46,091 nt of DNA from Candidatus Tenebribacter davisii (GTDB taxonomy: Bacteria > Cloacimonadota > Cloacimonadia > Cloacimonadales > TCS61). The notes below the pieces were generated by a model. It worked only from the letters and a program-made list of their open reading frames with translations, made no database searches and had not been told where the DNA came from. Where the stretch lies: positions 1 through 46,091 of the forward strand of contig JAVCCH010000062.1 in assembly GCA_030765535.1 (NCBI GenBank), given 5' to 3'. This document shows positions 8,484 to 24,090 of the stretch, one piece after another; the first letter of the stretch is position 1, and the number at the start of each line of letters is the position of its first letter. The position numbers and the translations under genes were made by a program.

Positions 8484-9842
8484 TCATCTCTCCAATTGTT
8501 TCATATTTTTTTTTAACATCAGTACAAAGATCGTTCCTTTTGGTTTATTGTCCTCTACAAAAACTTCTCCACCATATCTTTCGATAGTGTCTTTGACAAT
8601 ATGCAATCCAATGCCTGTATTCCCAGATTCTCCATGATGGAAACCCTCATCAAATACATTTTCTTTGATTTCTTCAGGAATTCCCGTTCCATTATCTGCA
8701 AATTCTATCCTGCGCATATCATTATCATCTGAAATTTTGATGTCAATTTGAGAAGCTTTACCATGTTTTATAGAATTCGAAACTAGATTTTCAAAAACTG
8801 AAATTAAAGTTTCATCGCCAAATACTCTGCCTGCACCTTCAATTTTAAATTTGATTTTGGGGTACTCGACTGCAACGCTATTTATTACATTTAATAGGTC
8901 TAATTCTTCAAAACCAGTATTTGAATCTAGATAAGATTCGGATTTTCGATAACCTGCAATTGCATTTAAACTCTTTTCAACTCTTTTTTCTATCTCATCC
9001 AGTAATGTTACATCGGAGTTTCTCTTGAAGATTTTAACTGCACTACTGATGACAGTAAAATCATTGGAAAGATCGTGGCGGATGATTTTATTTAGCATTT
9101 GTAGCCTTTCTTTGTTATCTCTCAAAGCTTCAATAGCTTTTTCCTTTTCGGTTTCATTTAGAAGTGATACCAGTACCCTGGAGTAATCTTTTTCGTGTCC
9201 AGGGACAGTATTCCATCTCAAAGAAACATTCAGCAATCTGCCATCAAAAGTTTTATTGATACATTTACCCTCATAAGAGGTTTCTCTATTAGATATTTTA
9301 ATCATTTGTCCCTTAAAGGTACTGAGAGAATCTTCGGTAAATATAGACGCAAGGTTCTTCAAAAAATCTTTTTTCGATCCGGCTTTGAACATTGAAATGG
9401 TAGTATTATTTACATCGAGGATCTTAACTTTTTGTGAGCAGGTGTTTATTTCCTGAGGATTTTCATTGAAAAAGGCTTCGAAGTCTTTGACCCCATGTTC
9501 TCTTAGTGACTCGATATATTGAAATGCACCTGAAAAATCCTCTTCCCAGATCGAAATAGGAGATTGTTCAAAAAGATATTTATATCTCTTTTCACTGTTT
9601 AGAATCATTTCTTCTGCTTGTTTGCGTCCTTCAATTTCTTTGGTGCATTTATCGACATGCTGCTGCAAAAGAATGTTTTGTTCAAACATGGAATAGGAAC
9701 TGCCGACGGAATCAACGCTTCTTTCTACTCGTTCCACCAGGATTTTATTGATCTTCTTTTGCTTAGCCAGTTTCTTTTCAAGTTGTTCCATATTTTTCTG
9801 TAATTCCAGAAGTTGTTCTTGCAGATTCATGTTTTCGTTCAT
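8484..9842 (-). CDS. PAS domain sensor histidine kinase, paired with FIST protein
   Basis: A 452-residue cytoplasmic histidine kinase with no membrane segment. Residues about 5-75 are a coiled coil rich in Leu, Gln, Glu and Lys. A PAS domain of the 'EDFS...GVKDFEAFF' type covers about 85-230. The dimerisation helix has the H-box IIRHDLSNDFTVI (His256). The ATPase domain has the N box ENLVSNSIKHG, the G1 box DNGTGIP and the G2 box GNTGIGLHIV. 'RHDLSND' in place of the common 'HELRTP' H-box is the type frequent in archaeal and PAS-rich kinases. The ATG overlaps the stop of the FIST gene (ATGA), so the two are probably made together, with FIST as the likely sensor. No partner response regulator gene adjoins it. 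Confidence 0.9.
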   Translation of the reverse strand: MNENMNLQEQLLELQKNMEQLEKKLAKQKKINKILVERVERSVDSVGSSYSMFEQNILLQQHVDKCTKEIEGRKQAEEMILNSEKRYKYLFEQSPISIWEEDFSGAFQYIESLREHGVKDFEAFFNENPQEINTCSQKVKILDVNNTTISMFKAGSKKDFLKNLASIFTEDSLSTFKGQMIKISNRETSYEGKCINKTFDGRLLNVSLRWNTVPGHEKDYSRVLVSLLNETEKEKAIEALRDNKERLQMLNKIIRHDLSNDFTVISSAVKIFKRNSDVTLLDEIEKRVEKSLNAIAGYRKSESYLDSNTGFEELDLLNVINSVAVEYPKIKFKIEGAGRVFGDETLISVFENLVSNSIKHGKASQIDIKISDDNDMRRIEFADNGTGIPEEIKENVFDEGFHHGESGNTGIGLHIVKDTIERYGGEVFVEDNKPKGTIFVLMLKKNMKQLER

Positions 9843-10981
9843 TCCTCTTCTCCTATTGCAACACCCGTAAGTGTTTGATTTACGTGAATGGCATTATACT
9901 GTTCTCCGTAGGTGCTGAAACCAAAAAAGTTCTTATCTTTGATGAGTGCAATAACTGGATCAACGATCTTTTTCTCCATGATCTCAAGTCTCCTCAAAAT
10001 GCAGTCAAAGCCAAGAATTAATTTCAGATTTGGGATCTTTTCCTTAACTTCAGACAGCTGCTTTTCCAGATTATCAACCAATCCCACTCCTTCGGCAATG
10101 GTCAAAACCAGGCCGTTATCAATTGCGCAATAGAAAGATAGACTTTTGTCTTCATTCACATGCTGGATGGAACGGACATAATACTCTCCTCCAATTTTGA
10201 GCATGACCGGATGATTTGAAAAAACTGTTGGCGTTAATTCGTCAATTGTTAAGCCAAGTACATCTGCATATTCTTTGGCTGCTGGTTCGCAATTGATTTC
10301 CATCACACGACGATTGGCCGGATCAGCTTTCGTAATCACTAGTTTCATGTCTGTAGGTTTGAAATGCTGTGTCTTGAAAATATGAAATGGCAAGTTTGTT
10401 TCGAACAAAGAAAAAGCAGCAGCATTGGAAATAAATTTGCCGTCCCAATAAACTGCAGTTTTACTAAATTGCAGATCATCACCGGCAGATCCACCGATGA
10501 TCGAGATGTTTTCAAATTGACTATGAATTAAGCTGATTGTTTTTTCCTCCTGCATGGAAAGACCGTCAATCAGCAAATATCCAAACATTTTATCTTTATT
10601 GAATGAAGTCTCAATACTGAGATCACCTCGGATATTACGAGCCATTTTTTCTGCCATTTCCATACTGAAATCACTTAAAGGACTAATCAACCTGGAATGT
10701 ATTTTAATCTCATCACTGGCGATGCTGACTCCCACAAGACTTCCCTCATGATACCCCGTTGTTGTTATCTCTCCTGAGGTTGTACAGCCGATCAGGTGAC
10801 AGGTAAATGTTTCATTTAGGGCATTGCCCATTTTTTCCAAATCATATTTTGATGAACAGAAAAAGATCACAACTTCAGCCTCTGGCTGATATATTTGATC
10901 GTATAATTCTTGAACCGCTAACTGCTCATCCTTGGCAAACGATACGCCATTCTTAACTTCAAGTTTTGAATTTGTAAACAT
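9839..10981 (-). CDS. FIST domain sensory protein (FIST_N and FIST_C)
   Basis: A 380-residue cytoplasmic protein. The first half carries FIST_N features (VVIFFCSSKYD, HLIGCTTSGEITTTGYHEGSLVGVSIAS). The second half is a FIST_C domain (SIQHVNEDKSLSFYCAIDNG, then LILGFDCILRR). FIST domains are predicted sensors for small ligands such as amino acids and usually act with kinases or cyclases. This one is translationally coupled to a PAS histidine kinase. The start is taken at 10981 because AGGAGG lies just upstream; the longer reading from 11005 would place that site inside the gene. The C-terminal region FGFSTYGEQYNAIHVNQTLTG is intact. Confidence 0.9.
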   Translation of the reverse strand: MFTNSKLEVKNGVSFAKDEQLAVQELYDQIYQPEAEVVIFFCSSKYDLEKMGNALNETFTCHLIGCTTSGEITTTGYHEGSLVGVSIASDEIKIHSRLISPLSDFSMEMAEKMARNIRGDLSIETSFNKDKMFGYLLIDGLSMQEEKTISLIHSQFENISIIGGSAGDDLQFSKTAVYWDGKFISNAAAFSLFETNLPFHIFKTQHFKPTDMKLVITKADPANRRVMEINCEPAAKEYADVLGLTIDELTPTVFSNHPVMLKIGGEYYVRSIQHVNEDKSLSFYCAIDNGLVLTIAEGVGLVDNLEKQLSEVKEKIPNLKLILGFDCILRRLEIMEKKIVDPVIALIKDKNFFGFSTYGEQYNAIHVNQTLTGVAIGEEE

Positions 10982-11016
10982 TTGTGTCCTCCTCATCAAA
11001 TTCATATACGAAACTT

Positions 11017-11124
11017 TTATAAAATGATATTTTGATCACGAATATATTTCCAATTTATATTTTTAGATTGAATTATAAAGCTGGCTATAAAAATCTTTAG
11101 CGATTGATTTTTTGCAAAATTCAT
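11017..11124 (-). CDS. Possible 35-residue small protein or leader upstream of the FIST gene
   Basis: An ATG at 11124 follows AAAGGAG with a 6-base spacer, the best ribosome site in this intergenic stretch. The frame runs 35 codons (starting MNFAKNQSLKIF, ending IRDQNIIL) to a TAA at 11017, 35 bases before the FIST ATG. The composition is not clearly membrane-like. It could be a real small gene, a leader peptide, or the remnant of a larger gene. The ribosome-site region recurs in degraded form at 14197-14240 without an ATG. No family recognised. Confidence 0.35.
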   Translation of the reverse strand: MNFAKNQSLKIFIASFIIQSKNINWKYIRDQNIIL

Positions 11125-11226
11125 CAATTACTCCTTTATATTAATTTACACATCAAACTTGACCAGACTTAACTTAATTAATCTCAGCCGTTGAGTTAAG
11201 AATGATAGCTCTCCAATCCTTAAGTC

Positions 11227-11249
11227 AGATCTGCTCCTTCGTCGCATTG
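11227..11249. repeat. REP-like short element in repeat A
   Basis: On the minus strand this reads CAATGCGACGAAGGAGCAGA and continues to TCT. It resembles the scattered 'cattgcgacgaaggagcaatct' type of repetitive extragenic element known from many genomes. The resemblance is from memory, not from a search. Confidence 0.4.
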
Positions 11250-11268
11250 TTAACTGAAGTCTGCTTTC

Positions 11269-11284
11269 TCCGGCAGCTGCCGGA
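11269..11284. repeat. Perfect 16-base palindrome, copy 1
   Basis: TCCGGCAGCTGCCGGA reads the same on both strands. It lies in a GC-rich patch of otherwise AT-rich DNA, 33 bases past the stop of the 885-residue kinase. It is kept exactly at 14341-14356 past the other kinase. It may form a hairpin that ends or stabilises the transcript, although no T-run follows, or it may be an operator. Confidence 0.55.
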
Positions 11285-11316
11285 TCTGGCGAACTCGGTT
11301 CTATTAATCCGATCTC

Positions 11317-13974
11317 TCACACTCTCTTTTTATACTGGTTATCTTTAAATTTAAAATTCCATTTCATACCATTATCAGTATCGTATCTAATCTGACCTCC
11401 CAACTGATATTTTATAAGAGAAAAAACGGTTTGAATTCCCATGGTCTCTATCTTTTCCAGATCAATATCTTTTGGTATTCCAACCCCATTATCACCCAAT
11501 AAAAGGTTAATTGTATCATCTTTTTCTTTGAATAAGCGTACTGAGATCTCACCTTCTGCATTATTTGGGAAAGCATGCTTGAACACATTTGTTATCAACT
11601 CACTTAAGATCAAACCTAAAGGTATTGCAGAATCAATTAATATATATACATCTTCCAATTCAAACTTCAATTTTATTTTTTCTGATCTGGTATTGTAGGT
11701 AACCAGTAACTGTTTAACAAGATCTTCTATATACTCTTTCAAATTTATATGAGACAGATCATTTGCTTTATACAATTTTTCGTGAACCAGACTCATCGAC
11801 TTGATCTTATTGGCGATAACGGTATAGGAATCATGAAGCAATTTAATTCCAACATTTTCAGTTAAGGATTTTGTCTCCATGTTTTTTGCTTCTAATTTAA
11901 GAAGTGAAATTATTAATTGCATATTATTTTTTGTGCGGTGATAAATTTCCTGCAAAAGTAAGCTTTTTTCTGCCAGATCTTTCTCTATCTGCTCATCTTT
12001 TTGTTTATGTTTAATAGCAAGAGCAATTTCTTCTGAAACAAATGTAAGAATTTCCAAATCTTTTTCTGTATATTGATTGGGATCATCATAACTTTGAACT
12101 GATATTATTCCGATTATTTTTTTTTCAATTTTCAAGGGAACACCCAACCATATTTCAGAAGGAGTACCAATAGCTTCGATGAAACCTTTTTGTGTTAACT
12201 CATCAACGACATCATTAGTAGCAAAAAGAGGTTTACCGGTTTCAATTACATATTTAGTCATAGTTTTACCAGCAGGATAAGTTTCAAATTGATCTTTTTC
12301 ATCAACAAGAAAGGGAAGAGAGATCATATCAGCCTTGTCATCGTATAAGGCGACTAAGAAATTTTCTGTGTTGATTACATTTCCCAGAATTTCTTTTACT
12401 TTTCCATAGAGCTCACTTAAACTGTCAGTTGTATTTATTGTATTGGAAATGTTAAATAATGTTTTTTGAATTTCTTCGGACTGTTTTCGATCGGTGATGT
12501 CAATCGCTAGTTCAAAACGAACCATTTTTCCGTTTGGCCACTGGATGGCACGATCTGAACATCGATACCAATGTTTGTTGACCTCGTTTTTAAACTCCCA
12601 AGTATAAGTTTTTCCCAGATTTTCCCCGAAGATTTTATTATTCGTACAAAAGGGACATGGCGAATTACGATCTTGTAAAACTTTGTAACATTTTCCACTG
12701 GCAATGTCTCCCCATACTTCTTTAACCATATTGTTCTGATAAAGTAGTTCGTATGTATTTGGGTCGGCAATATAAACCACTTCATTCATACCACCGAAGA
12801 TAGCCAGGAGTTGTTCCTGCTGTTGCCTGCTCTTTTTCTCTGCCTGCTTGCGTTCGGTGATGTCATGAAATAATCCAAAGGATCCAATCAAATTTCTTTC
12901 CATATCATATTGAGGAGTAACGGTAATTAGAAGTTGTCTATTTGTTTTATCATTTCTGATAATTTCAAATTCATAAGTATTTTTTTTCCCTTTTTTCCTT
13001 TTATCTGACTGATTTTTTACAAATTCCAACATTTGTGGATTCAAAAATTCGTTTAAATTTTTACCGACAAGTTTTCCAGCAGGAACACCAAAAATACTCT
13101 CTGCAGCAGGATTACAATATACAAAATTTTCCTCAAGATCAACAGTTGCAACTCCTTCACCTATATTTGTGAATAATAGACGATAATTTTCTTCGCTATT
13201 ATGAAGTGCTTCTTCAACTTTTTTCCGCTCGGTAATGTCAAGCATAGAGACGATACTGGTTTTGCCGTCAGGAGTCATCCCAATAGAAAGAATTGTATTT
13301 CTTATCTCTCCTTTGGAATTTACTAATCTTACTTCATATTTGTCAGTAGCAGATTCCGAATCTTTTGTCCTTTCCTTAGAGCGTCTGAGCATCATTGAAA
13401 GATCTTGTTCATATACAAATTGGGTCCAGCTTTTTCCAACAAGCTTGGAGGCGGAATATCCCGTAACACTCTCACATTCTTTATTTGCTTGTATAATTAA
13501 AGTATTCATATCAACAATCAAAGTAGCTGTTCCGGTAGATTCAAAAATGGCACGATATTTATTTTCACTTTCTTTCAAATCTTCCTTCGCCTGTTTTCGT
13601 TCTATCGCATATTGCACTATTCGCACCAGGTTATTACTATTTATATCGCTCTTTGTAAGATAGTCCTGTGCACCTTCTTTAATTGCCTGCAATGCCAGGT
13701 TTTCATCTTTCAGTCCGGAAAGAATTACTATCGGTAATCCCGGAACATGTGAACGAACCTTTTTAAAAGTCTCGAGTCCTTGGCTATCAGGTAATTCCAA
13801 GTCGAGTAATATCATCTCGAATTGCTTTTCGTCCAGTAACTTCAGTGACTTGTCGAGTCTTGCTGAATTCGTAATTGTGAACTCAACTTTTTTGTTTTCT
13901 TTAAGGATTTCCATGATAAGTCTGACATCACCTGGATTACCCTCTACTAACAATAAGCGTATTTTAGAATTCAT
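11317..13974 (-). CDS. Hybrid sensor kinase: receiver-PAS-PAS-PAS-GAF-HisKA_2-HATPase
   Basis: An 885-residue cytoplasmic signalling protein. Residues 1-125 form a receiver with Asp58 (ILLDLELPD), Ser86 and Lys108 present. Its metal-binding acidic pair reads EG (VEGNPGD) where relatives usually have ED. PAS domains span about 137-255, 256-380 and 381-500; the third carries a CYKV...CPFC cysteine cluster. A GAF domain covers about 505-660. HisKA_2 has YHRTKNN with His679. The ATPase domain has the N box ELITNVFKHAF and the G1 box GDNGVGIP. The receiver and 5' leader match the 437-residue neighbour, and the last 207 residues match the SBP-kinase. The ATG at 13974 has AAAGGA upstream. The true phosphate source and target are unknown. 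Confidence 0.9.
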   Translation of the reverse strand: MNSKIRLLLVEGNPGDVRLIMEILKENKKVEFTITNSARLDKSLKLLDEKQFEMILLDLELPDSQGLETFKKVRSHVPGLPIVILSGLKDENLALQAIKEGAQDYLTKSDINSNNLVRIVQYAIERKQAKEDLKESENKYRAIFESTGTATLIVDMNTLIIQANKECESVTGYSASKLVGKSWTQFVYEQDLSMMLRRSKERTKDSESATDKYEVRLVNSKGEIRNTILSIGMTPDGKTSIVSMLDITERKKVEEALHNSEENYRLLFTNIGEGVATVDLEENFVYCNPAAESIFGVPAGKLVGKNLNEFLNPQMLEFVKNQSDKRKKGKKNTYEFEIIRNDKTNRQLLITVTPQYDMERNLIGSFGLFHDITERKQAEKKSRQQQEQLLAIFGGMNEVVYIADPNTYELLYQNNMVKEVWGDIASGKCYKVLQDRNSPCPFCTNNKIFGENLGKTYTWEFKNEVNKHWYRCSDRAIQWPNGKMVRFELAIDITDRKQSEEIQKTLFNISNTINTTDSLSELYGKVKEILGNVINTENFLVALYDDKADMISLPFLVDEKDQFETYPAGKTMTKYVIETGKPLFATNDVVDELTQKGFIEAIGTPSEIWLGVPLKIEKKIIGIISVQSYDDPNQYTEKDLEILTFVSEEIALAIKHKQKDEQIEKDLAEKSLLLQEIYHRTKNNMQLIISLLKLEAKNMETKSLTENVGIKLLHDSYTVIANKIKSMSLVHEKLYKANDLSHINLKEYIEDLVKQLLVTYNTRSEKIKLKFELEDVYILIDSAIPLGLILSELITNVFKHAFPNNAEGEISVRLFKEKDDTINLLLGDNGVGIPKDIDLEKIETMGIQTVFSLIKYQLGGQIRYDTDNGMKWNFKFKDNQYKKRV

Positions 13975-14196
13975 TTCTTATTCCTTTAGTATATATTAAA
14001 AATCCATTTATATAAACTTCGGATGAGAACGAGTTTTTAATATACGATATCATACTTAGGTTCTTTACCAATTTGTTTAAGTAATTCATTAATCTCTTTT
14101 CTTAATTCATTAATTGTAATTTCTCTATCAACGGAGGCGTCATTAAAGATTTCCAGCTCATTTATTTTATTTTTCAATTCTTCCTCTGCTTTTTTG
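13562..14196. repeat. Direct repeat B, copy 1: receiver coding region, leader and preceding gene tail
   Basis: This is repeated at 18744-19379. It contains the start of a receiver protein gene, its 62-base leader, and the C-terminal coiled tail of the gene before it. In this copy that preceding gene is reduced to the tail fragment. Confidence 0.85.
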
Positions 14197-14197
14197 C
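14037..14197 (-). pseudogene. Remnant: C-terminal coiled tail of a PAS protein
   Basis: The frame ending at the TAA 14037-14039 encodes about 52 residues (AEEELKNKINELEIF ... GKEPKYDIVY). They match the C-termini of the 723- and 437-residue PAS proteins further along. There is no usable start codon. Homology to the intact copy stops at a TTTTTTG run (14190-14196), where the sequence switches to repeat A. It is a leftover of a larger gene lost by recombination. An unseen short peptide from this fragment is possible but unlikely. Confidence 0.8.
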
Positions 14198-15050
14198 GAA
14201 ATATATTAATTACCTCTTTATATTAATTTACAAATCAAACTTGGCTTAATTAACCTCAGACGTTGAGATTAGAATGATAGCTCTCCAATCCTTAAGTCAG
14301 ATCTGCTCCTTCGTCGCATTGTTAACTCAAGTCTGCTTTCTCCGGCAGCTGCCGGATCTGGCAAACTCGTGTTTATTGACCCGATCTCTCACACTCTCTT
14401 TTTATACTGGTTATCTTTAAACTTAAAATTCCATTTCATACCATTATCAGTATCGTATCTAATCTGACCTCCTAACTGATATTTTATAAGAGAAAAAACG
14501 GTTTTAATTCCCATGGTCTCTGTCTTTTCCAGATCAACTTCTTTTGGTATTCCAACCCCATTATCACCCAATAAAAGGTTAATTGTATCATCTTTTTCTT
14601 TGAATAAGCGTACTGAGATCTCACCTTTTGCATTATTTGGGAAAGCATGCTTGAACACATTTGTTATCAACTCACTTAAGATCAAACCTAAAGGAATAGC
14701 AGAATCAATTAATATGAATACATCTTCCAATTCAAGCTTCAATTTTATTTTTTCCGATCTGATATTGTAACTACCCATTAACTGTCTAACAAGATCTTCT
14801 ATATACTCTTTCAGATTTATATGAGACAAATCCTTTGCTTTATACAGTTTTTCGTGAACCAAACTCATCGACTTGATCTTATTGGCGACTACAGTATACG
14901 AATCATGAAGCAAATTAATTCCAACATTTTCGGTTAAGGATCTTTTCTCCATGTTTTGTGCTTCTAATTTGAGCAATGAAATTATCAATTGCATATTATT
15001 TTTTGTTCGGTGATAAATTTCTTGAAGAAGTATGTTTTTTTCTGTCAGGT
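14190..15050. repeat. Direct repeat A, copy 2
   Basis: The second copy of the block at 11108-11975. It includes the last 207 codons of the SBP-kinase gene and about 200 bases downstream, with the REP-like element and the palindrome conserved. Its far end coincides with the PAS-tail remnant. Confidence 0.85.
14341..14356. repeat. Perfect 16-base palindrome, copy 2
   Basis: Identical to the palindrome at 11269-11284 (TCCGGCAGCTGCCGGA), 33 bases past the stop of the SBP-kinase gene. Confidence 0.55.
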
Positions 15051-17790
15051 TTATTTTTAATTGTTTATCAGATTGTATATGTTTGATTGAGAGAGCTATT
15101 TCTTCTGAGATAAAGTTAAGAAGTGTAATATCTTTTTCAGAATACAGGTTTGGATCATCATAACTTTGAACTGCGATTACGCCAATAATTTCATTCTCTA
15201 CTTTAAGTGGGACACCTAACCAGATTAGAGCAGGAGTTCCAATAATCTCAACTTTATTCTCTTTAATCAGCTTTTTTAATAGTTTCTCATCAACAAGTAT
15301 AGATTTACCTGTTTTTAAAACTAATTCTGTCAACGTCTTACCAGCCGGGAAAGTTTCATAATTATCTTTTTCATCTACATCGAAAGGAAGATAGATCATG
15401 TCAGTTTTTTTATTATATAAAGCGATATAGAAATTGGTAGTGTCTATCACGTTTCCCAAAAAATCTCTTATCTTGCTGTAAAGGTCATGCAAATTGTCTA
15501 CTGTATTTACCGCATTGGAAATGTTGAATAATGTTTTTTGTATTTTTTCTGCATGCTTACGCTCATTAATTTCTAAATGCAATTTCTTTGAAGTTTTATT
15601 GAGGTCAGATAAAATAGATAAAGTAGCAATTCTTTGTCTTTCGCTTTTTTCAAAATGCTTTTCCATTTTTTTTGAATTCTCTTTATTTTCTTCTTCCGCT
15701 TTCTTGCGCTCGGTGATGTCACGATCAACCCCGATAAAACCAATTATTTCTTTGTTAAGATCAACTTGAGGTAAGGCAGAACTCTCAAGATAAATGTAAA
15801 TTCCGTCTTTATTACGCCAACGTGTTACAATATTGTTCCACCCAGATTTGTTATGAATAGCTTGTTTATAGATCTCTATGAACATATTTTGATCTTCAGG
15901 GTGCACTAATTCGATTGTGTCCATATTACAAATTTTACTGGAGGAAAATCCTAAGATTTTCTTACAAACATTATTGCTGTAAATATGTTTTCCCTTTAGA
16001 TTCATTTCCCAGATCCAATCGCTTGAGGTTTCTACTAAAGAGCGATATTTTTGTTCGCTATCTGTAAGTGCATTCTCTGCTATTTTACGCTCACTAATAT
16101 CACGAACCATTGCAAGTCTTCCAATAACATTACCATTAATATCAAAAAGATTTGATACATTTAACTCGACTGGTATTTTGCTACCATTTTTATGTAGGAT
16201 TTCAATTTCATAAAGAGGCATCTTTTTACCAGTAAGGCCTTTTTTAAAGCTCTCAATAGATAACTCAACAAATTCTGGAACTATTAATTCTATAAAAGGA
16301 TGACCCAGGAAATGTTTCCAGTTAAAACCTGTTATTCTTTTAGATGCTGGACTAATGTAAGTAAAATTCCCTTCCATATCTAAAGTGATAATTATATCAG
16401 AAGATGTTTCAGCAAGTGCACGATATTTATTTTCACTTTCTTTTAATTCTTTCTCCAGTTGTTTGTGCTCGGTAATATCATTAATGAGTCCTTGCCAGAG
16501 AAAAACTCCATCTTCTCTCTTGAACGAATTGAACAAGGCACGAACCCATCTTATATTCGATTCATCGATTATTAAACGATATTCAAAATCTAAGTTTTTA
16601 TTGGATTGAAAAGCTTTTAAAGATGCTTCATCCAGTGCTTTAAAATCTTCTTCCGGTATTAGTTTGAAATATTCATTTTGATCTTCATATATTTTTTTTG
16701 CTAATTCTTCTCCTACGATCTTTTCCATACCAGGTCCCTGGTAAATGTACTCACGATGTCCATCCGGATGCCATTGATATATAGACACTACACCGGGTAC
16801 ATTCTCTGCAAATAATTTGAATTTTTCTTCGCTTTTTACTAAAGTTTTTTCAGTGATTTTCCTTTTCGCGATATCTTCTTCCAATTCACTGGTGCGTTTC
16901 CTGATAAGTTTTTTCAGTATCCCGTTCCAAGTGTAAATGATTATAAATCCAACAAAACTTAAACATATTATAGAGATTAAGATAAGCCAGAATTGTTTGT
17001 TACTGAAAATCGATTTATTTTTTATTGTAATCCATTTTTTGATTATTGCTTCTTTTTTGTTCGTTGGAATATTTGAAAGAGTTTTTTGAATTATAGTTCC
17101 TAACATAGGCCAGTCTTTACGGGTTAGAATGGATAATTTTGTATAATATCCTGTTTCTCCTGTTACTCGCAGATTCAGTATACCATCTTTCTCAATATAA
17201 TAAAGAGCAATTGGTAACGTTGCTATAATTACATCATGCATACCCATGGAAATATCTCGAAGTCCATCCTGTAGAGAATTCACTTGAACAATTTCTATCT
17301 TAGGATGATGAAGCGTTAACATATCTTGCCACACATATCCTGATACAATTACAACTTTCTTATTATGCAGATGTTCGATCGTTTTGATTTCAGTATAGTC
17401 ATTTCTGGTTATTATCACACCCGGAAAAATCAAGTATGGTGAAGAAAAATCCATATATTCGGCTCTTTGTGGTGTTTGTGCTGCAGCAGATAACATATCA
17501 ACATCTCGATCTCTAGCCTTTTGCAGAACTTCTTCCCAATTGCTACACTTAACAACTTCAAACTTTATATCCAATTCCTGCGAAATTAAATCCATGAATT
17601 CCGTGGAAATCCCTTGATATAAACCGTTTTCATCTATCCATTCTATGGGAGTAAATTCAGGATCGGGTGCAATCCTAATGATTTTATGATTTGAGAGCCA
17701 CCCTCTTTCTTCATTAGTTAGATTTGTATTCGCAGCACGGGCAAATCCCGATATAATCAATATTACAGTAATAAATAATAATTTTTTCAT
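14389..17790 (-). CDS. Membrane sensor kinase: SBP_bac_3-TM-PAS-PAS-PAS-GAF-HisKA_2-HATPase
   Basis: A 1133-residue sensor kinase. A signal sequence (about 1-20) leads a periplasmic solute-binding domain of the SBP_bac_3 type (about 25-265; IAPDPEFTPIEW, DVDMLSAAAQTPQRAEYMDF). One membrane segment follows at about 268-292. Inside the cell come three PAS domains (about 320-440, 448-570, 575-695), a coiled region, a GAF domain (about 745-900) and HisKA_2 (YHRTKNN) with an ATPase domain of the same type as the 885-residue kinase. The SBP domain suggests sensing of an amino acid or similar small solute. The start is the ATG at 17790 with AAAGG upstream; a GTG three codons earlier would overlap that site. 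PAS1-PAS2 are near-copies of those in the 723-residue protein. Confidence 0.9.
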   Translation of the reverse strand: MKKLLFITVILIISGFARAANTNLTNEERGWLSNHKIIRIAPDPEFTPIEWIDENGLYQGISTEFMDLISQELDIKFEVVKCSNWEEVLQKARDRDVDMLSAAAQTPQRAEYMDFSSPYLIFPGVIITRNDYTEIKTIEHLHNKKVVIVSGYVWQDMLTLHHPKIEIVQVNSLQDGLRDISMGMHDVIIATLPIALYYIEKDGILNLRVTGETGYYTKLSILTRKDWPMLGTIIQKTLSNIPTNKKEAIIKKWITIKNKSIFSNKQFWLILISIICLSFVGFIIIYTWNGILKKLIRKRTSELEEDIAKRKITEKTLVKSEEKFKLFAENVPGVVSIYQWHPDGHREYIYQGPGMEKIVGEELAKKIYEDQNEYFKLIPEEDFKALDEASLKAFQSNKNLDFEYRLIIDESNIRWVRALFNSFKREDGVFLWQGLINDITEHKQLEKELKESENKYRALAETSSDIIITLDMEGNFTYISPASKRITGFNWKHFLGHPFIELIVPEFVELSIESFKKGLTGKKMPLYEIEILHKNGSKIPVELNVSNLFDINGNVIGRLAMVRDISERKIAENALTDSEQKYRSLVETSSDWIWEMNLKGKHIYSNNVCKKILGFSSSKICNMDTIELVHPEDQNMFIEIYKQAIHNKSGWNNIVTRWRNKDGIYIYLESSALPQVDLNKEIIGFIGVDRDITERKKAEEENKENSKKMEKHFEKSERQRIATLSILSDLNKTSKKLHLEINERKHAEKIQKTLFNISNAVNTVDNLHDLYSKIRDFLGNVIDTTNFYIALYNKKTDMIYLPFDVDEKDNYETFPAGKTLTELVLKTGKSILVDEKLLKKLIKENKVEIIGTPALIWLGVPLKVENEIIGVIAVQSYDDPNLYSEKDITLLNFISEEIALSIKHIQSDKQLKINLTEKNILLQEIYHRTKNNMQLIISLLKLEAQNMEKRSLTENVGINLLHDSYTVVANKIKSMSLVHEKLYKAKDLSHINLKEYIEDLVRQLMGSYNIRSEKIKLKLELEDVFILIDSAIPLGLILSELITNVFKHAFPNNAKGEISVRLFKEKDDTINLLLGDNGVGIPKEVDLEKTETMGIKTVFSLIKYQLGGQIRYDTDNGMKWNFKFKDNQYKKRV
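16043..16838. repeat. Direct repeat C, copy 1: PAS1-PAS2 coding block
   Basis: Repeated at 19708-20500 with high nucleotide identity by eye, including long identical runs. It encodes the first two PAS domains of the SBP-kinase. Confidence 0.85.
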
Positions 17791-17810
17791 ATGATTCACC
17801 TTTCAATATT

Positions 17811-17838
17811 ATTATAGTTCAATTTACACAACCCTCAA
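17811..17838 (-). promoter_or_regulatory. Possible promoter of the SBP-kinase gene
   Basis: TTGAGG (17838-17833) and TATAAT (17816-17811) on the minus strand are 16 bases apart, in the 52-base gap before the SBP-kinase ATG. The leader would be only about 14 bases. The adjacent gene may also read through. Confidence 0.4.
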
Positions 17839-17842
17839 GTCT

Positions 17843-18005
17843 TCAATATACGATATCATATTTTGGTTCTTTACCAATTTGTTTGAGTGATTCATTGATT
17901 TCTTTTCTTAATTCATTAATTGTAACTTCTCTATTAACAGAAGCTTCATTAAAGATTTCCAGCTCATTCATTCTCTTCTTCATTTGTTCTTCTGCCTGCT
18001 TGCGC
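17843..18005. repeat. Third copy of the PAS-protein C-terminal tail sequence
   Basis: This encodes the C-terminal coiled tail of the 437-residue protein, ending KYDIVY. It closely matches 14037-14190 and 19220-19375. Confidence 0.8.
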
Positions 18006-19156
18006 TCGGTGACATTCTCAGTAATGGCCATTTCAAATAGTGGCTTTCCCCTTTCATCACGAACAATTTGAGATCTAATGTGAACGTAAACAACGCTTCC
18101 ATTTTTATGTATATATCTCTTATCTAATTCGAAATATCGTATTTTACCATCCGATAAATCTTCATACAATTCTTTATTCTGCGCTTCATCATCAGGGTGT
18201 GAGAATTGATTAAAATGTTTGTGCTGCATTTCTTCCGAGGAATAACCTATCATATTACATACTGCAGGATTCACTTCTATAAATTTACCATTCAGATCCG
18301 TAATGCTAACTCCGATCGGAGATTTATCTATCATTAACCGCAGTTTTTCTTCGCTTTTCTTTAGCTTCAGCTCTATCTGCTTTCGTTCAGTGATATCGGT
18401 CATAAAAGCAAGTCCGCATTTTTCTCCCTCCCAAACAGTGGTTGTAGTTCTCATTTCAACAGGGATTATTTTTCCACTTTTTGCAATCACTTTTCTATGA
18501 TATAAATTAGGCGTTTTTTCACCTTTTATCCGGTTTTTATACATCTTAGCATATTTCTTCAGATCATCCGCTGGTGTTATATCCTTCATTGTTAACTCAA
18601 GCATCTCAAGCTCATTATACTCAATTATATCGCTTAATCTTTTGTTTGCATACCTATGCCGTCCATTTGAATCGGCAATAAGTATTCCATCCGGAGAATT
18701 ATCAAGAACATCCTGAAGGTTTTTTCTAATTTCTTTTAATTGTTTTTCACTTTCTTTCAAATCTTCCTTTGCCTGTTTTCGTTCTATCGCATATAGCACT
18801 ATTCGCACCAGATTATTACTATTCATTTCGCTCTTCGTAATACAGTCCTGCGCGCCTGCTTTAATTGCCTCCAATGCCAGGCTTTTATCATCTATACTGG
18901 CAAGAATCACTACCGGTAATCCCGGAGCATATGAACTAATCTTTTTAAAAGTCTCAAGTCCCTGGCTATCAGGTAATTCCAGGTCGAGTAATATCATCTC
19001 GAATTGCTCTTCGCCCAGTAACTTCAGTGACTTGTCGAGTCTTGCTGAATTTGTAATTGCGAACTCAGCTTTTTTGGTTTCTTTCAGCATTTCCATGATA
19101 ATTCTGGCATCACCTGAATTATTATCTACTAATAATAAGCGTATTTTAGGATTCAT
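17843..19156 (-). CDS. Receiver-PAS-PAS protein with coiled C-terminal tail and no kinase domain
   Basis: A 437-residue cytoplasmic protein. The receiver (1-125) keeps Asp58 (ILLDLELPD) and Lys108. Its metal-site pair is DN (LLLVDNNSGD) instead of two acids, and the conserved Ser/Thr before the loop is Ala86 (VVILAS), so normal phosphorylation switching is doubtful. Two PAS domains follow (about 145-265 and 270-392). The last 45 residues form a charged coiled tail (EIFNEASVNREVTINEL, ending KYDIVY) with no catalytic domain. The tail type is known at the end of other PAS proteins. The ATG at 19156 is preceded by a 63-base leader shared with the 885-residue kinase gene. It may act as an adaptor, or be a kinase that lost its output half. 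Confidence 0.85.
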   Translation of the reverse strand: MNPKIRLLLVDNNSGDARIIMEMLKETKKAEFAITNSARLDKSLKLLGEEQFEMILLDLELPDSQGLETFKKISSYAPGLPVVILASIDDKSLALEAIKAGAQDCITKSEMNSNNLVRIVLYAIERKQAKEDLKESEKQLKEIRKNLQDVLDNSPDGILIADSNGRHRYANKRLSDIIEYNELEMLELTMKDITPADDLKKYAKMYKNRIKGEKTPNLYHRKVIAKSGKIIPVEMRTTTTVWEGEKCGLAFMTDITERKQIELKLKKSEEKLRLMIDKSPIGVSITDLNGKFIEVNPAVCNMIGYSSEEMQHKHFNQFSHPDDEAQNKELYEDLSDGKIRYFELDKRYIHKNGSVVYVHIRSQIVRDERGKPLFEMAITENVTERKQAEEQMKKRMNELEIFNEASVNREVTINELRKEINESLKQIGKEPKYDIVY

Positions 19157-19379
19157 TTCTTACTCCTTGAGTATAAATTAAAATTCCATTTTTATATACT
19201 TATGGTTGAAAACGAGTTTTTAATATACGATATCATATTTTGTTTCTTTACCAATTTGTTTGAGTAACTCATTAATTTCTTTTCTTAATTCATTAATTGT
19301 AACTTCTCTATCAACAGAAGCTTCATTAAAGATTTCCAGCTCATTTATTTTACTTTTCAATTCTTCCTCTGCTTTTTTG
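18744..19379. repeat. Direct repeat B, copy 2
   Basis: Matches 13562-14196. Here the tail at 19220-19375 is still joined to a complete upstream gene, so this copy shows the ancestral arrangement. Confidence 0.85.
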
Positions 19380-21391
19380 AGATCGGTGATATCAAGCATA
19401 GAGACAGCGCTTCTTTTAACGTTTGGAATTACTCCAATAGAGAGAATTGTATTTCTTATGTCTCCTTTTGAATCGATCAACCGAACTTCATATTTATCTG
19501 GAACTGATTCCTTATCTTCATATCTGGATTTTTGACGATTCAACATTATCTGTAAATCTTCTTTATACACAAATTCAGTCCAGCTTTTACCTATTAGTTC
19601 GGATGCAGCAAATCCTGTTATTACCTCACATTCTCTATTTACTTGAACTATAGTTGTTTCTTCGTTCACTATCATAGTAGCTGTCCCGGTGGATTCAAAA
19701 ATAGCACGATATTTTTCTTCACTTTCTGCAAGTGCATTCTCTGCTATTTTACGCTCACTGATATCACGAACCATAGCAAGTCTTCCAATAACATTACCTT
19801 TAATATCAAAAAGATTTGATACATTCAACTCGACAGGTATTTTGCTACCATTTTTATGTAAGATTTCAATTTCATAAAGAGGTATCTTTTTACCAGTAAG
19901 ACCTTTTTTAAAACTCTCAATAGATAACTCAACAAATTCTGGAACTATTAATTCCATAAAAGGACGACCCAAAAAATGTTTCCAGTTAAAACCTGTTATT
20001 TTTTTAGATGCTGGACTAATGTAAGTAAAATTCCCTTCCATATCTAAAGTGATAATTATATCAGAAGATGTTTCAGCAAGTGCACGATATTTATTTTCAC
20101 TTTCTATTAATTCTTTCTCCAATTGTTTGCGCTCGGTAATATCATTAATGAGTCCTTGCCAGAGAAAAACTCCATCTTCTATCTGGAATGCGCTGAACAA
20201 GGCACGAACCCATCTTATATTCGAATCATTAATTGTTAACCGATATTCAAAATCTAAGTTTTTACCAGTATGAAAAGCTTTTAAAGATGCTTCATTCAAT
20301 GCCTTGAGATCATCTTCTGGTATTAGTTTGAAATATTCATTATAATCTTTATATATTTTTTTTGCTAATTCTTCTCCTACGATCTTTTCCATACCAGGTC
20401 CCTGGTAAATATACTCACGATGTTCATCAGAATACCATCTATATATTCGCACTACGCCGGGCACATTCTCTGCAAATAATTTGAATTGTGCTTCACTTTT
20501 TTTTAATTGGGCAGTCTTTTTCACAATCTGGTGTTTCAAAATACGGTTGAAAACGAAGATAATTAATGCAAATGATAACATTAGAGCAATGGTAATTTTT
20601 AACCAAAGGGGGAAAGATGTAATTTTTTCATGTTCACCCAGATATTTATCCATCGATATGTAAAAAATTGAATTTTGATCTTTCTTTAACTTTTTAATAT
20701 GAAAATCAAGTTGTTCAAGATAATATGGTGTTAGTTTTGAATTTATAGAGCAGGCATAATGCATACTTGCTGGTTGGAATATGATTGGTGTTCTTTTTAC
20801 TTTATAATCTTTTTCATGTTTTGCACCAAAATCTTTATTTGTAATTCCAACATCTGCTTCATTATTATTCAAAGCTTCAAATACTTTGACGTAATCATCC
20901 ATTTCGATGATGTCACAGTTTATATCGAATTTGTTAATAAGATCTTTTAATCCTTCAGGTCCTTCAATATTAATACTGTTTTTTAGTCCTGCTATTTTTT
21001 TGCCCTCAATATCAAGTATAGTTTGAAAATTTAATCCTCTTTTTGTGTATAATCTTGTCCAACTAAGGAGAACTGTTTCTTTGTTAAACGAGAATTTATT
21101 TTCTCTAGCAGGAGTTATAGCTACATCAATCATTATGTCGATCTCATTAGTTTCCAATTTCTTCAGACACTGATCCCAAGTTCCATGTACCCATTCGATT
21201 TCCCAATATTCCCGATCTGCTATATGTTTTGTAACATCAGCCCAGAATCCACTCATTTCACCGTTTTCATTAGTATATATCTTGGGTGCATTCTCATAAA
21301 CACCAATTTTTACATGTAATTTTTCTTTTGCTGTTAATGATAAGGTACTTAAGAGAATAAAAAAAAATGTTAGTAAAATTGCTTTTTTCAT
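19220..21391 (-). CDS. Membrane sensor SBP_bac_3-TM-PAS-PAS-PAS with coiled tail and no kinase domain
   Basis: A 723-residue protein. A signal peptide (MKKAILLTFFFILLSTLSL) leads a periplasmic SBP_bac_3 domain (about 25-255; VKIGVYENAPKIY, DIMIDVAITPAREN) and one membrane segment (about 265-290). Three cytoplasmic PAS domains and the same coiled tail as the 437-residue protein follow. PAS1 and PAS2 are near-copies of those in the SBP-kinase, while PAS3 resembles PAS1 of the 885-residue kinase. No histidine kinase, GGDEF or other output domain follows, so it must signal through a partner if it signals at all. The start is placed at 21391, where AAGGAG precedes the ATG and a clean signal peptide begins; a longer reading from 21454 lacks both. 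It heads the island's transcription unit. Confidence 0.87.
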   Translation of the reverse strand: MKKAILLTFFFILLSTLSLTAKEKLHVKIGVYENAPKIYTNENGEMSGFWADVTKHIADREYWEIEWVHGTWDQCLKKLETNEIDIMIDVAITPARENKFSFNKETVLLSWTRLYTKRGLNFQTILDIEGKKIAGLKNSINIEGPEGLKDLINKFDINCDIIEMDDYVKVFEALNNNEADVGITNKDFGAKHEKDYKVKRTPIIFQPASMHYACSINSKLTPYYLEQLDFHIKKLKKDQNSIFYISMDKYLGEHEKITSFPLWLKITIALMLSFALIIFVFNRILKHQIVKKTAQLKKSEAQFKLFAENVPGVVRIYRWYSDEHREYIYQGPGMEKIVGEELAKKIYKDYNEYFKLIPEDDLKALNEASLKAFHTGKNLDFEYRLTINDSNIRWVRALFSAFQIEDGVFLWQGLINDITERKQLEKELIESENKYRALAETSSDIIITLDMEGNFTYISPASKKITGFNWKHFLGRPFMELIVPEFVELSIESFKKGLTGKKIPLYEIEILHKNGSKIPVELNVSNLFDIKGNVIGRLAMVRDISERKIAENALAESEEKYRAIFESTGTATMIVNEETTIVQVNRECEVITGFAASELIGKSWTEFVYKEDLQIMLNRQKSRYEDKESVPDKYEVRLIDSKGDIRNTILSIGVIPNVKRSAVSMLDITDLKKAEEELKSKINELEIFNEASVDREVTINELRKEINELLKQIGKETKYDIVY
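19708..20500. repeat. Direct repeat C, copy 2
   Basis: The second copy of 16043-16838, encoding PAS1-PAS2 of the 723-residue sensor. Confidence 0.85.
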
Positions 21392-21422
21392 TATTTTTCT
21401 CCTTAATTCTACAATTGATATA

Positions 21423-21451
21423 ATAAAAATTATTAACTTTTTACATGTCAA
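21423..21451 (-). promoter_or_regulatory. Predicted promoter of the SBP-PAS sensor gene
   Basis: TTGACA at 21451-21446 (minus strand), 60 bases before the ATG. At a 17-base spacing the -10 region reads TTTTAT. Confidence 0.5.
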
Positions 21452-21602
21452 CAACTTTTACTTACAAGACGGTATTGTATTTATGTAATATGATATTGCT
21501 TCTTTTCAGTTCTCACTTTTCTTCTGTTCCAGGTTCGATATCATTATTCCATTCTTTTTAGTCTTTTTTCATGAGTTCTATATCACTATTCATTTTTAAA
21601 GC

Positions 21603-21620
21603 TCTTAGAATTGATTTTTG
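21603..21620. repeat. Perfect 18-base inverted repeat, left arm
   Basis: CTCTTAGAATTGATTTTT, the exact reverse complement of 22285-22302. The arms bound 700 bases of gene-free DNA. Confidence 0.75.
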
Positions 21621-22284
21621 GTGTTTTTCTATATATTTATTCCTTTAGAACTTAAATATTTGTTATGCTGTTCTGCATTATAGCTTCATTGCTTATTTTA
21701 AAAAGAATAATCTCTTATTATCTAAATGTGCTTTCAATCAGTACTTTTAGCTTTTTTCAGATTCTGTAGTAGGGCAGAAGCTCTTATCAAATATTATAAA
21801 AAATCCTTTTTTCTATTTTTTATGTTAAAATTATACTTATTAGTCTTCAATTCATAAGATTTGATTTTGTTAAAACAGTTAAATAACAGGATCATTTAAA
21901 AATTAATTTTATAGATATCCTATTTCGCATTCTGATTTCTTAGAAAAACATGCTATTAATTTATTTCACAATAAATCTAAGGAATAGCAAATGGTACTTA
22001 AATGCTTAAATAGTTATGGAGCAAGATATTACACATAATCATGCAAGTTTACATAATATATATTATCACATGTTTGAAATCAGGCTGTTTTTAGATACTT
22101 ATTGCTGAAATATCTGCTCTCCTCCACTATAATTTTATTTCTAAGGAATTATACTAAATTATATTTACTGCTGTTAAAACTTGTTTTTGTATTCTTATTT
22201 TTAAATATGTTTAGTAGAATGTATTTTATAAAATAATAATAAATATTGAAAATAATTAAAAAGTATAGAATACATTAAATTCTT

Positions 22285-22302
22285 AAAAATCAATTCTAAG
22301 AG
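22285..22302. repeat. Perfect 18-base inverted repeat, right arm
   Basis: AAAAATCAATTCTAAGAG pairs exactly with 21603-21620. No target-site duplication is obvious outside the arms. Confidence 0.75.
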
Positions 22303-22359
22303 ACGAAAAAATAAAAGTAGAGTAAATTTACATAATATTAATATAATTAAATGATTCCT

Positions 22360-24090
22360 TTAATCTTCAAAGAATGGATTTAAATTCTCAACCTCTTCAG
22401 CTTGGAGTATCTCAAAAACTTCTTCCGGGCTCTTAGATTTTATAATTTGATCTTTTATCTCAGGATGATGACCGAATATTTTGGCAATATTAGCTAAAAT
22501 ATTAAGATGAAGATCATAATTCTTTGTTGGTGTTGCAATGAGTATCATAATATTAACAGGAAGATCATCAATTGAATCAAAGGGTATACCGGTTTTTGAA
22601 ATACCGATTACACCGCGAATTTTAGGTCCTCCATCTATAATAGCATGCGGAATCGCCAGGTTTCCACCAATTCCGGTTGAGATATCTTTTTCTCGTTTAA
22701 TAATCGATCTTTTTAATTCGTTTAAGGATATTTCATGAATTTTGTGAGAACGATGTAAAAAAACTGCCAATTTATCAAGAGCGTCCCATTTGTCTTTTGC
22801 TTTAAGATCAATAGTGATATACTCTTCTTGCAAAAAATCCATTAAACGTATTCTGTTCTTATGGCTCTCACCCGCTTTAATTATTGCTTTTTTTGTGAAT
22901 ATTGGACCCAACAGCTCGTTTATCACTACTGCTGCAAGTACAATTGATGTGATCTGCCCAGAATACTCATGTAGGAAACTACTATTTTCAATCAACAGTA
23001 TTAAACCAATAGCAACCCCAGCTATTGGATAGAGCGAAATCCCAATCCATCTTTTGATCGTTTTTGTTGATCTTGCGATATAAGCACCTAAAGTTGGTGC
23101 TATGGTCTTCCCTATTAACCGTGAGACAATAAGGACTATACCTGCATATCCAGCTGATTTCATAACTCCCAGATCAAAGTGAGTTCCGGCTAGAACAAAG
23201 AACAATGTAAAAACTTCTATTTCTATATCTTTGAAAGCTCCAAAAAAGATTGAACTATATTTTGAATAATTTGTAATAATAATTCCCAGGAAAAGGCATG
23301 ATAAAAGCCCAGACAGGTGTATTAGCTGAGAAGTTCCTACAGTAAGTACAACTGCTAAAATTACCATAGCCAGGAATGAAATCCTGATCTTCCGTTTTTC
23401 AGTAAAATAAATCAGCGTTCCACCCACCGCAATTCCAATAAATGCCGACTCTAAAAGCATTAATAGCGGTTTTGAGATCAAATTAAGTACAGTAATATCA
23501 TGCATTGTACTTTTATAAAATAGATAATTAAACACAGTATAGAATATCAAAATTGTTAATACATTATTTAAAGCTACTACAGCAAGTATCGTTTTAGTGA
23601 ATATACCTTTAGCACGATTTTCACGAATTATATGTAATGTAGAGCCCGGAGCAGTTGTAATGGCTATAGACGCTACCAGTAAGCTTACTTCAAATGACAG
23701 ATGAGCTATTTTATATAAAGAAAAAAATACAATAACCGGTGTGATTATAACATCTGAAAGAGTAATTAAAGTTATTCGTTTCCCGGCACTGCGTAGTTTT
23801 TGGAAATCAATATGACTTCCAATTGAAAGTCCAATAAAACCCAGAGCGAAATTTGTGATAGGAGCTAAAGAGGTAAACGCGCTATCCTGGAAGATATTTA
23901 ATACATAACGCCCCAGTATTACACCTCCGATGATTTGAGCTGTTATGGTGGGAATATGAAGCTTAGAAGCAATTTTTGTAGCGATATAACCTGTTATAAG
24001 CAAAACAGCTAATACTAAAAGTGGATTAGGATGATTTAATAAGGCAGTTTCATGTTGAAGCCATAATTGAATATGCTTCAATATACTCAT
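22360..24090 (-). CDS. Cation:proton antiporter (CPA2-like) fused to a PTS EIIA domain
   Basis: A 576-residue inner-membrane protein. Residues about 20-395 hold roughly a dozen membrane segments of the Na+/H+ exchanger (Kef/CPA2-like) type, including GGVILGRYVL and the half-helix-like GLLSCLFLGIIITNYSK. The C-terminal 160 residues are an EIIA domain of the fructose/nitrogen (PtsN) class, with the phosphorylatable histidine in GGNLAIPHAI and the second conserved histidine in NYDLHLNIL. No NAD-binding RCK domain is present. The fusion suggests control of ion exchange by a phosphotransfer state, though no EI or HPr gene is nearby. The ATG overlaps the miaB stop (ATGA), so translation is coupled. 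Confidence 0.88.
   Translation of the reverse strand: MSILKHIQLWLQHETALLNHPNPLLVLAVLLITGYIATKIASKLHIPTITAQIIGGVILGRYVLNIFQDSAFTSLAPITNFALGFIGLSIGSHIDFQKLRSAGKRITLITLSDVIITPVIVFFSLYKIAHLSFEVSLLVASIAITTAPGSTLHIIRENRAKGIFTKTILAVVALNNVLTILIFYTVFNYLFYKSTMHDITVLNLISKPLLMLLESAFIGIAVGGTLIYFTEKRKIRISFLAMVILAVVLTVGTSQLIHLSGLLSCLFLGIIITNYSKYSSIFFGAFKDIEIEVFTLFFVLAGTHFDLGVMKSAGYAGIVLIVSRLIGKTIAPTLGAYIARSTKTIKRWIGISLYPIAGVAIGLILLIENSSFLHEYSGQITSIVLAAVVINELLGPIFTKKAIIKAGESHKNRIRLMDFLQEEYITIDLKAKDKWDALDKLAVFLHRSHKIHEISLNELKRSIIKREKDISTGIGGNLAIPHAIIDGGPKIRGVIGISKTGIPFDSIDDLPVNIMILIATPTKNYDLHLNILANIAKIFGHHPEIKDQIIKSKSPEEVFEILQAEEVENLNPFFED

Follow-up and report, generated by a model that had tools for sequence, protein, structure and literature searches.

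Neighbouring sensor genes of a Cloacimonadota bacterium as probable mosaics of modules exchanged at inter-domain linkers

Most inferences of domain shuffling in the sensors of bacteria draw on ancient events, where comparisons are blurred. The two-component proteins of myxobacteria, which draw on the same kit of REC, PAS, GAF and HisKA/HATPase modules as the locus described here, have diversified by fusion, domain gain and loss, and horizontal transfer (PMC4603909). In that survey, direct shuffling between proteins was judged rare, with loss followed by gain the likelier route (PMC4603909). The present locus differs in that donor and recipient are adjacent, the tracts are recent, the junctions can be mapped and the trees conflict within a gene; it is a clear counter-example to the rarity of direct shuffling, though the process itself is known. 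PMC8097286 likewise describes recombination between modules of large multidomain proteins as a driver of diversity in NRPS gene clusters; those are biosynthetic enzymes, whereas here the proteins are sensory and the tracts end in coiled-coil linkers. Functional linkers of PAS/LOV histidine kinases obey a heptad rule, a seven-residue periodicity in length established with linker-length variants of the LOV kinase YF1 (PMC6798134), and what sets this locus apart is that natural recombination points obey the same rule, their linkers being almost constant at 14 residues. A further comparison is with HisKA_2 kinases that carry SBP_bac_3 heads (PF07568, PF00497), to which the 1136-residue protein of our locus conforms by domain content and with which an 885-residue protein shares the kinase part; unlike in those kinases, the closest forms of these heads often end in a tail rather than in a kinase. 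A literature search on gene conversion among sensor kinases found nothing specific.

We analysed a 46,091-nucleotide stretch of Candidatus Tenebribacter davisii (contig JAVCCH010000062.1), hereafter the window. Four large signalling genes lie on its minus strand. In order of transcription they encode a sensor without a kinase (19220..21454, SBP1-TM-PAS-PAS-PAS-tail; a 744-residue reading frame with a TTG start, or 723 residues if the ATG at 21391 is used, the length by which we refer to it), a 437-residue protein also without a kinase (17843..19156, REC-PAS-PAS-tail), an 1136-residue sensor kinase, or SBP-kinase (14389..17799, SBP2-TM-PAS-PAS-PAS-GAF-HisKA_2-HATPase), and an 885-residue kinase (11317..13974, REC-PAS-PAS-PAS-GAF-HisKA_2-HATPase, its PAS3 recognised by a local profile). 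A FIST-domain protein and then a PAS histidine kinase follow. Together with a Na/H-exchanger and PTS-EIIA protein, these genes make up an extra block between miaB and yicC (8484..24090, minus strand).

Profiles support the domain assignments. SBP_bac_3 lies N-terminal to the PAS domains of the 723- and 1136-residue proteins (PF00497, E 2e-16 and 4e-23), and the 885- and 1136-residue proteins match Pfam HisKA_2 (E 7e-18 and 3e-18) and HATPase_c (E 2e-7 in both) and have the phospho-acceptor His, in the box EIYHRTKNNMQ. The receivers of the 437- and 885-residue proteins (PF00072, E about 1e-16) keep the phospho-acceptor Asp and the conserved Lys (DLELPD, TKS), and in neither is the full acidic pair found together with the conserved Thr/Ser: the former reads VDN, with one residue of the pair gone, and VILAS, with the Ser/Thr gone, and the latter reads VEG and, in VILSG, keeps the Ser. 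The copy in Candidatus Celaenobacter antarcticus reads VED and VILTG. The 437-residue protein's receiver (gene at 17843-19156, minus strand) also evolves fast, with a dN/dS of about 0.7 against the 885-residue copy; these residue losses and the fast change suggest that its phosphorylation may have been lost or altered.

Two other proteins of the window were noted in passing. The Na+/H+ exchanger fused to a PTS EIIA domain (22360-24090, minus strand) lies directly behind miaB, and its homologues in the same genus are only 28-34% identical and located elsewhere. An 850-residue beta-helix/PKD protein (40686-43238, minus strand) has a Por secretion tail and internal repeats of about 67-80% DNA identity.

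The four signalling genes have linker-to-linker blocks in common at 88-97% DNA identity, with ends that are abrupt in sliding identity. A first-pass annotation of this DNA had described the genes as mosaics of duplicated modules, and self-blastn bears out each of the pairings that it named. PAS1-PAS2 of the 723-residue sensor and of the SBP-kinase (repeat C, 19707..20501 and 16043..16837, both minus strand) align without gaps at 92% over 795 nt. The receiver and leader common to the 437- and 885-residue proteins lie in repeat B (18744..19382 and 13562..14199, minus strand; 89% over 639 nt), which is bounded by the linker ahead of a tail and the linker behind the receiver, with the tail, the intergenic DNA and the receiver between them; the first copy given comprises the tail of the 723-residue sensor and the receiver of the 437-residue protein, and the second holds an orphan tail and the 885-residue protein's receiver. 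The C-terminal tail modules of the 437- and 723-residue proteins (17843..18015 and 19220..19392, minus strand) match at 88% (17838-18015 against 19215-19392). PAS3 of the 723-residue sensor does resemble PAS1 of the 885-residue kinase (19363-19727 against 13209-13573), but at 73% nucleotide identity and a dS of 1.5 this likeness is older.

Repeat A, said to duplicate the kinase ends and about 200 downstream bases, spans 11105-12477 and 14187-15549 (83% over 1.38 kb) and proves to be of two ages. Identity steps sharply at about 12000/15064, between GAF and kinase: the GAF part is old, at about 69-70% of nucleotides, and the kinase part with the DNA behind it stands at 90-98%. This recent part (11225..12000 and 14298..15064, both minus strand) comprises HisKA_2-HATPase, 93.5% identical over 214 codons, and about 90 nt of downstream non-coding DNA, itself 90-98% identical, beyond which homology runs about 110 nt further. 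High identity therefore extends outside coding DNA, as had been claimed, and self-comparison shows identity exceeding ordinary protein-level similarity. The orphan tail in repeat B, the homologous but old GAF upstream and the identity step in repeat A go beyond the earlier description.

The non-coding segment behind both kinases (11225-11316 and 14298-14388, minus strand) is richer in G+C than its surroundings and carries the palindrome CCGGCAGCTGCCGG. A structured RNA was considered for it and rejected: it has no Rfam match, and in one copy only is folding better than that of shuffled sequences (z -3.3; the other copy has -0.6). Since the stem of the better-folding copy is not kept in the other, we regard the segment as having been carried along with the copied tract. 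With just two copies in the genome, it is not a genome-wide mobile repeat either.

The ends of the blocks fall at inter-domain linkers. In the breakpoint analysis that the first-pass annotation had proposed, 12 of 13 mapped ends lie inside a linker and one a residue away (1.8 expected inside), and all 13 lie within five residues (2.6 expected), although the exact p-value must be discounted because the linker list was partly drawn post hoc, the REC-PAS and GAF-kinase linkers by hand. The PAS linkers follow the consensus DITERKxAExxLKxSExKYR, and the DIT and SE motifs of 62 linkers, taken from 74 loci, are spaced by exactly 14 residues in 51 of them, with 58 showing spacings divisible by seven. 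The linker DNA is itself repeated, at up to 92% over 37 nt. Swaps between 14-residue, two-heptad linkers would thus preserve both reading frame and coiled-coil register. Breakpoints at linkers could also result if breaks were random and selection kept only those that left domains intact.

The orphan tail (14040..14198, minus strand; profile E 2.3e-29) is a remnant lying in the intergenic DNA between the genes for the SBP-kinase and the 885-residue kinase, still in frame to its own stop. It meets repeat A at about 14188, with the microhomology CAAAAAA; left of this junction the DNA matches the segment downstream of the 885-residue kinase, and right of it the tail of the 723-residue sensor. The remnant is either the former end of the SBP2 sensor, later replaced by a kinase end, or a passenger of a copied tail-receiver block, and the contiguous identity of repeat B is compatible with both origins.

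If modules are shuffled, relatives should carry them in other combinations, and those in Cloacimonadota do. Behind SBP1 come one PAS and a tail in genomes G018 and G009, two PAS and a kinase in G025 and G032, and, in G035 as well as Celaenobacter, three to four PAS with a tail; behind SBP2, G004 and G005 have PAS-tail. Both heads occur in relatives with a kinase or with the 50-residue C-terminal tail, and the sensor-head tree contains at least four changes between the two endings. Two adjacent genes of G006 (754 and 816 residues) are fused in its near relative G003 into one for a 666-residue protein, at 88-92% identity, and in another cluster G003 has two in-frame module deletions.

At least one module, the receiver, has moved between families as well. 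Celaenobacter (Cloacimonadota; another family) is the closest named record to carry one of these genes; there, the receiver module of a 565-residue protein, taken as 410 nt including the ribosome-binding region, is 87% identical to that of the window, with a dS of 0.36. Identity falls to about 30% over the remainder of that protein, housekeeping DNA of the two genomes stands at about 65-69% in longer matches, and miaB and yicC show a dS of about 1.0-2.0 between the window genome and its own genus. Set against that scale, the receiver's low dS indicates that one module crossed families. No other genome among the 125 searched has a receiver at comparable identity.

These relationships bear on whether the mosaic arose in another lineage and was imported whole between miaB and yicC. 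In three genomes of the same genus (G001, G002, G004) the block is absent and miaB adjoins yicC with only intergenic DNA between them; the window keeps part of that DNA, in the gap separating antiporter from mosaic cluster, and also its yicC end, so that antiporter and signalling block look like separate additions. The empty site, the separate additions and a receiver nearly shared with Celaenobacter would all suit import. We nevertheless consider it unlikely: none of the 125 genomes of the class has this arrangement, and so no relative with an identical old order was found; the modules' nearest relatives are scattered, with SBP2 and the kinase closest within the genus; and the GC content resembles that of the surroundings. 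Import would in any case bear on where the exchange took place, not on whether it occurred.

A 24-base AT-rich, palindrome-like motif, TGTGATAATATATATTATGTAAAC, lies at 22047-22070 (minus strand). Four genomes of the genus (that of the window, G001, G002 and G004) keep it almost unaltered in the intergenic DNA between miaB and yicC, and short matches that overlap it come up in further genomes of the class. The motif has no Rfam match and could be a regulator site or promoter.

Divergence at synonymous sites separates exchange from a simpler history in which whole genes were duplicated in tandem and then diverged, the patchy identity reflecting no more than uneven selective constraint. The genes are adjacent, co-directional and partly paralogous, as duplication would leave them, but dS jumps about sixfold within a continuous homologous module, from 1.17 in the GAF immediately upstream to 0.19 in the kinase of repeat A, and falls to 0.067 over its last 104 codons. 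Values inside the other blocks are similar (0.18 in repeat C, 0.17 in the receiver of repeat B and 0.17 in the tail), non-coding DNA is as similar as coding DNA, and residue identity drops to 24-25% once the comparison leaves the blocks for the heads and remaining PAS domains of these supposed duplicates. The trees conflict as well: the kinase ends of the 885- and 1136-residue proteins are sisters with 100/100 support, and a sister relationship of their GAFs is rejected (p-AU 0.0075), the 1136-residue protein's GAF pairing instead with that of genome G018. Adjacent segments of one gene thus have different histories in both trees and dS, the mark of a mosaic gene, which argues for exchange between paralogues; tandem duplication alone is very improbable. 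Nor do the kinase ends evolve uniformly in concert inside each genome, because in several relatives orthologue pairs across species are closer than a genome's own paralogues (G005/G009, G003/G006).

An assembly chimera might be suspected in a draft metagenome-assembled genome of 218 contigs, near-repeats being prone to misassembly, but we regard it as extremely improbable, as the copies differ throughout (83-97%) with all reading frames intact, the flanks are collinear with same-genus genomes and similar mosaics recur in independent genomes. Programmed diversification, with modules shuffled by a recombinase, retroelement or invertase devoted to the task, has recurrent module changes in many relatives and two small inverted repeats near 21.6-22.3 kb in its favour and can hardly be right, since the window proteins scanned include no recombinase, reverse transcriptase or transposase family, the inverted repeats are short and imperfect, and the breakpoints follow protein linkers rather than one fixed DNA site. 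Neither the enzymes nor the fixed sites that define a DGR or phase-variable shufflon were found, and the description of the cluster as a machine for making new sensor combinations finds no support as that of a dedicated device: the block and its flanks yielded neither a recombinase or reverse transcriptase nor an invertible repeat system, and the inverted repeats seen are weak. "Machine" is best read figuratively; ordinary recombination at repeated linkers is enough.

Taken together, the dS steps, the conflict between GAF and kinase trees, the non-coding identity, the linker breakpoints and the other combinations in relatives sustain the proposal of recent shuffling or gene conversion. We therefore favour, with considerable confidence, repeated and fairly recent module exchange between neighbouring paralogues, with linkers as interchange points and two alternative C-termini. 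On this reading the four genes are mosaics produced by whole-module exchange, putatively mostly non-reciprocal, through gene conversion or ectopic recombination, with the exchanged tracts ending in inter-domain linkers. A role for the linkers as interchange points is suggested by their near-identical DNA (about 40-60 nt) and two-heptad length, which would keep chimeras in frame and in coiled-coil register. One genome per species is available, so that gene conversion is not separable from other routes of exchange, unequal crossing-over with later deletion among them, nor can single events be dated. An ending in HisKA_2-HATPase would make a protein a kinase, and an ending in the 50-residue helical tail a kinase-less input subunit; shuffling would then alter which heads and which PAS, GAF or receiver modules are connected to kinase or tail.

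The tail (consensus LEIFN..VDRE..INELRKEINELLKQ.GK..KYDIV) is C-terminal in all 56 proteins that carry it and occurs with a HATPase domain in none. It matches no known coiled-coil or output family in Pfam, where the best hit (OmpH, E 0.004) falls below the cut-off, and no solved structure in the PDB, where the best E is 0.2. In each of 45 cases with a long enough contig, the same-strand gene run from the tail gene reaches a kinase gene, directly in 26, via further tail genes in five and with another small gene between in 14. The next neighbour is a kinase or tail gene for 35 of 52 tail genes, against 58 of 340 other genes at the same loci (Fisher p 4e-13), in a set of loci many of which were fetched by similarity to the 885- or 437-residue protein and about 20 by a tail-only search. 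From gene order, we infer that tail proteins may be kinase-less input subunits that feed, and would pair with and modulate, the kinase encoded downstream.

In genomes G009 and G005, a gene of about 144 residues lies between the tail genes and the kinase gene (L094 6194-, L099 2651+), with 90% DNA identity between the two species; its product is possibly another component.

More tentatively, Cloacimonadota may use a plug-in design, in which many kinase-less sensors end in a single conserved helical plug that docks on the kinase at the end of the run, and recombination at standardised two-heptad linkers swaps heads between plug and kinase ends. If so, a new input could be connected to a kinase already present, and no additional kinase would be needed. 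With donor, recipient, tract and junction all within 10 kb, exchange at interchangeable heptad linkers becomes testable, and the locus offers an unusually clear view of bacteria building new sensors in the little-studied phylum Cloacimonadota. The undescribed C-terminal tail, in turn, suggests in concrete terms how sensors that lack a kinase, and to which genome annotation assigns no output, may feed neighbouring kinases.
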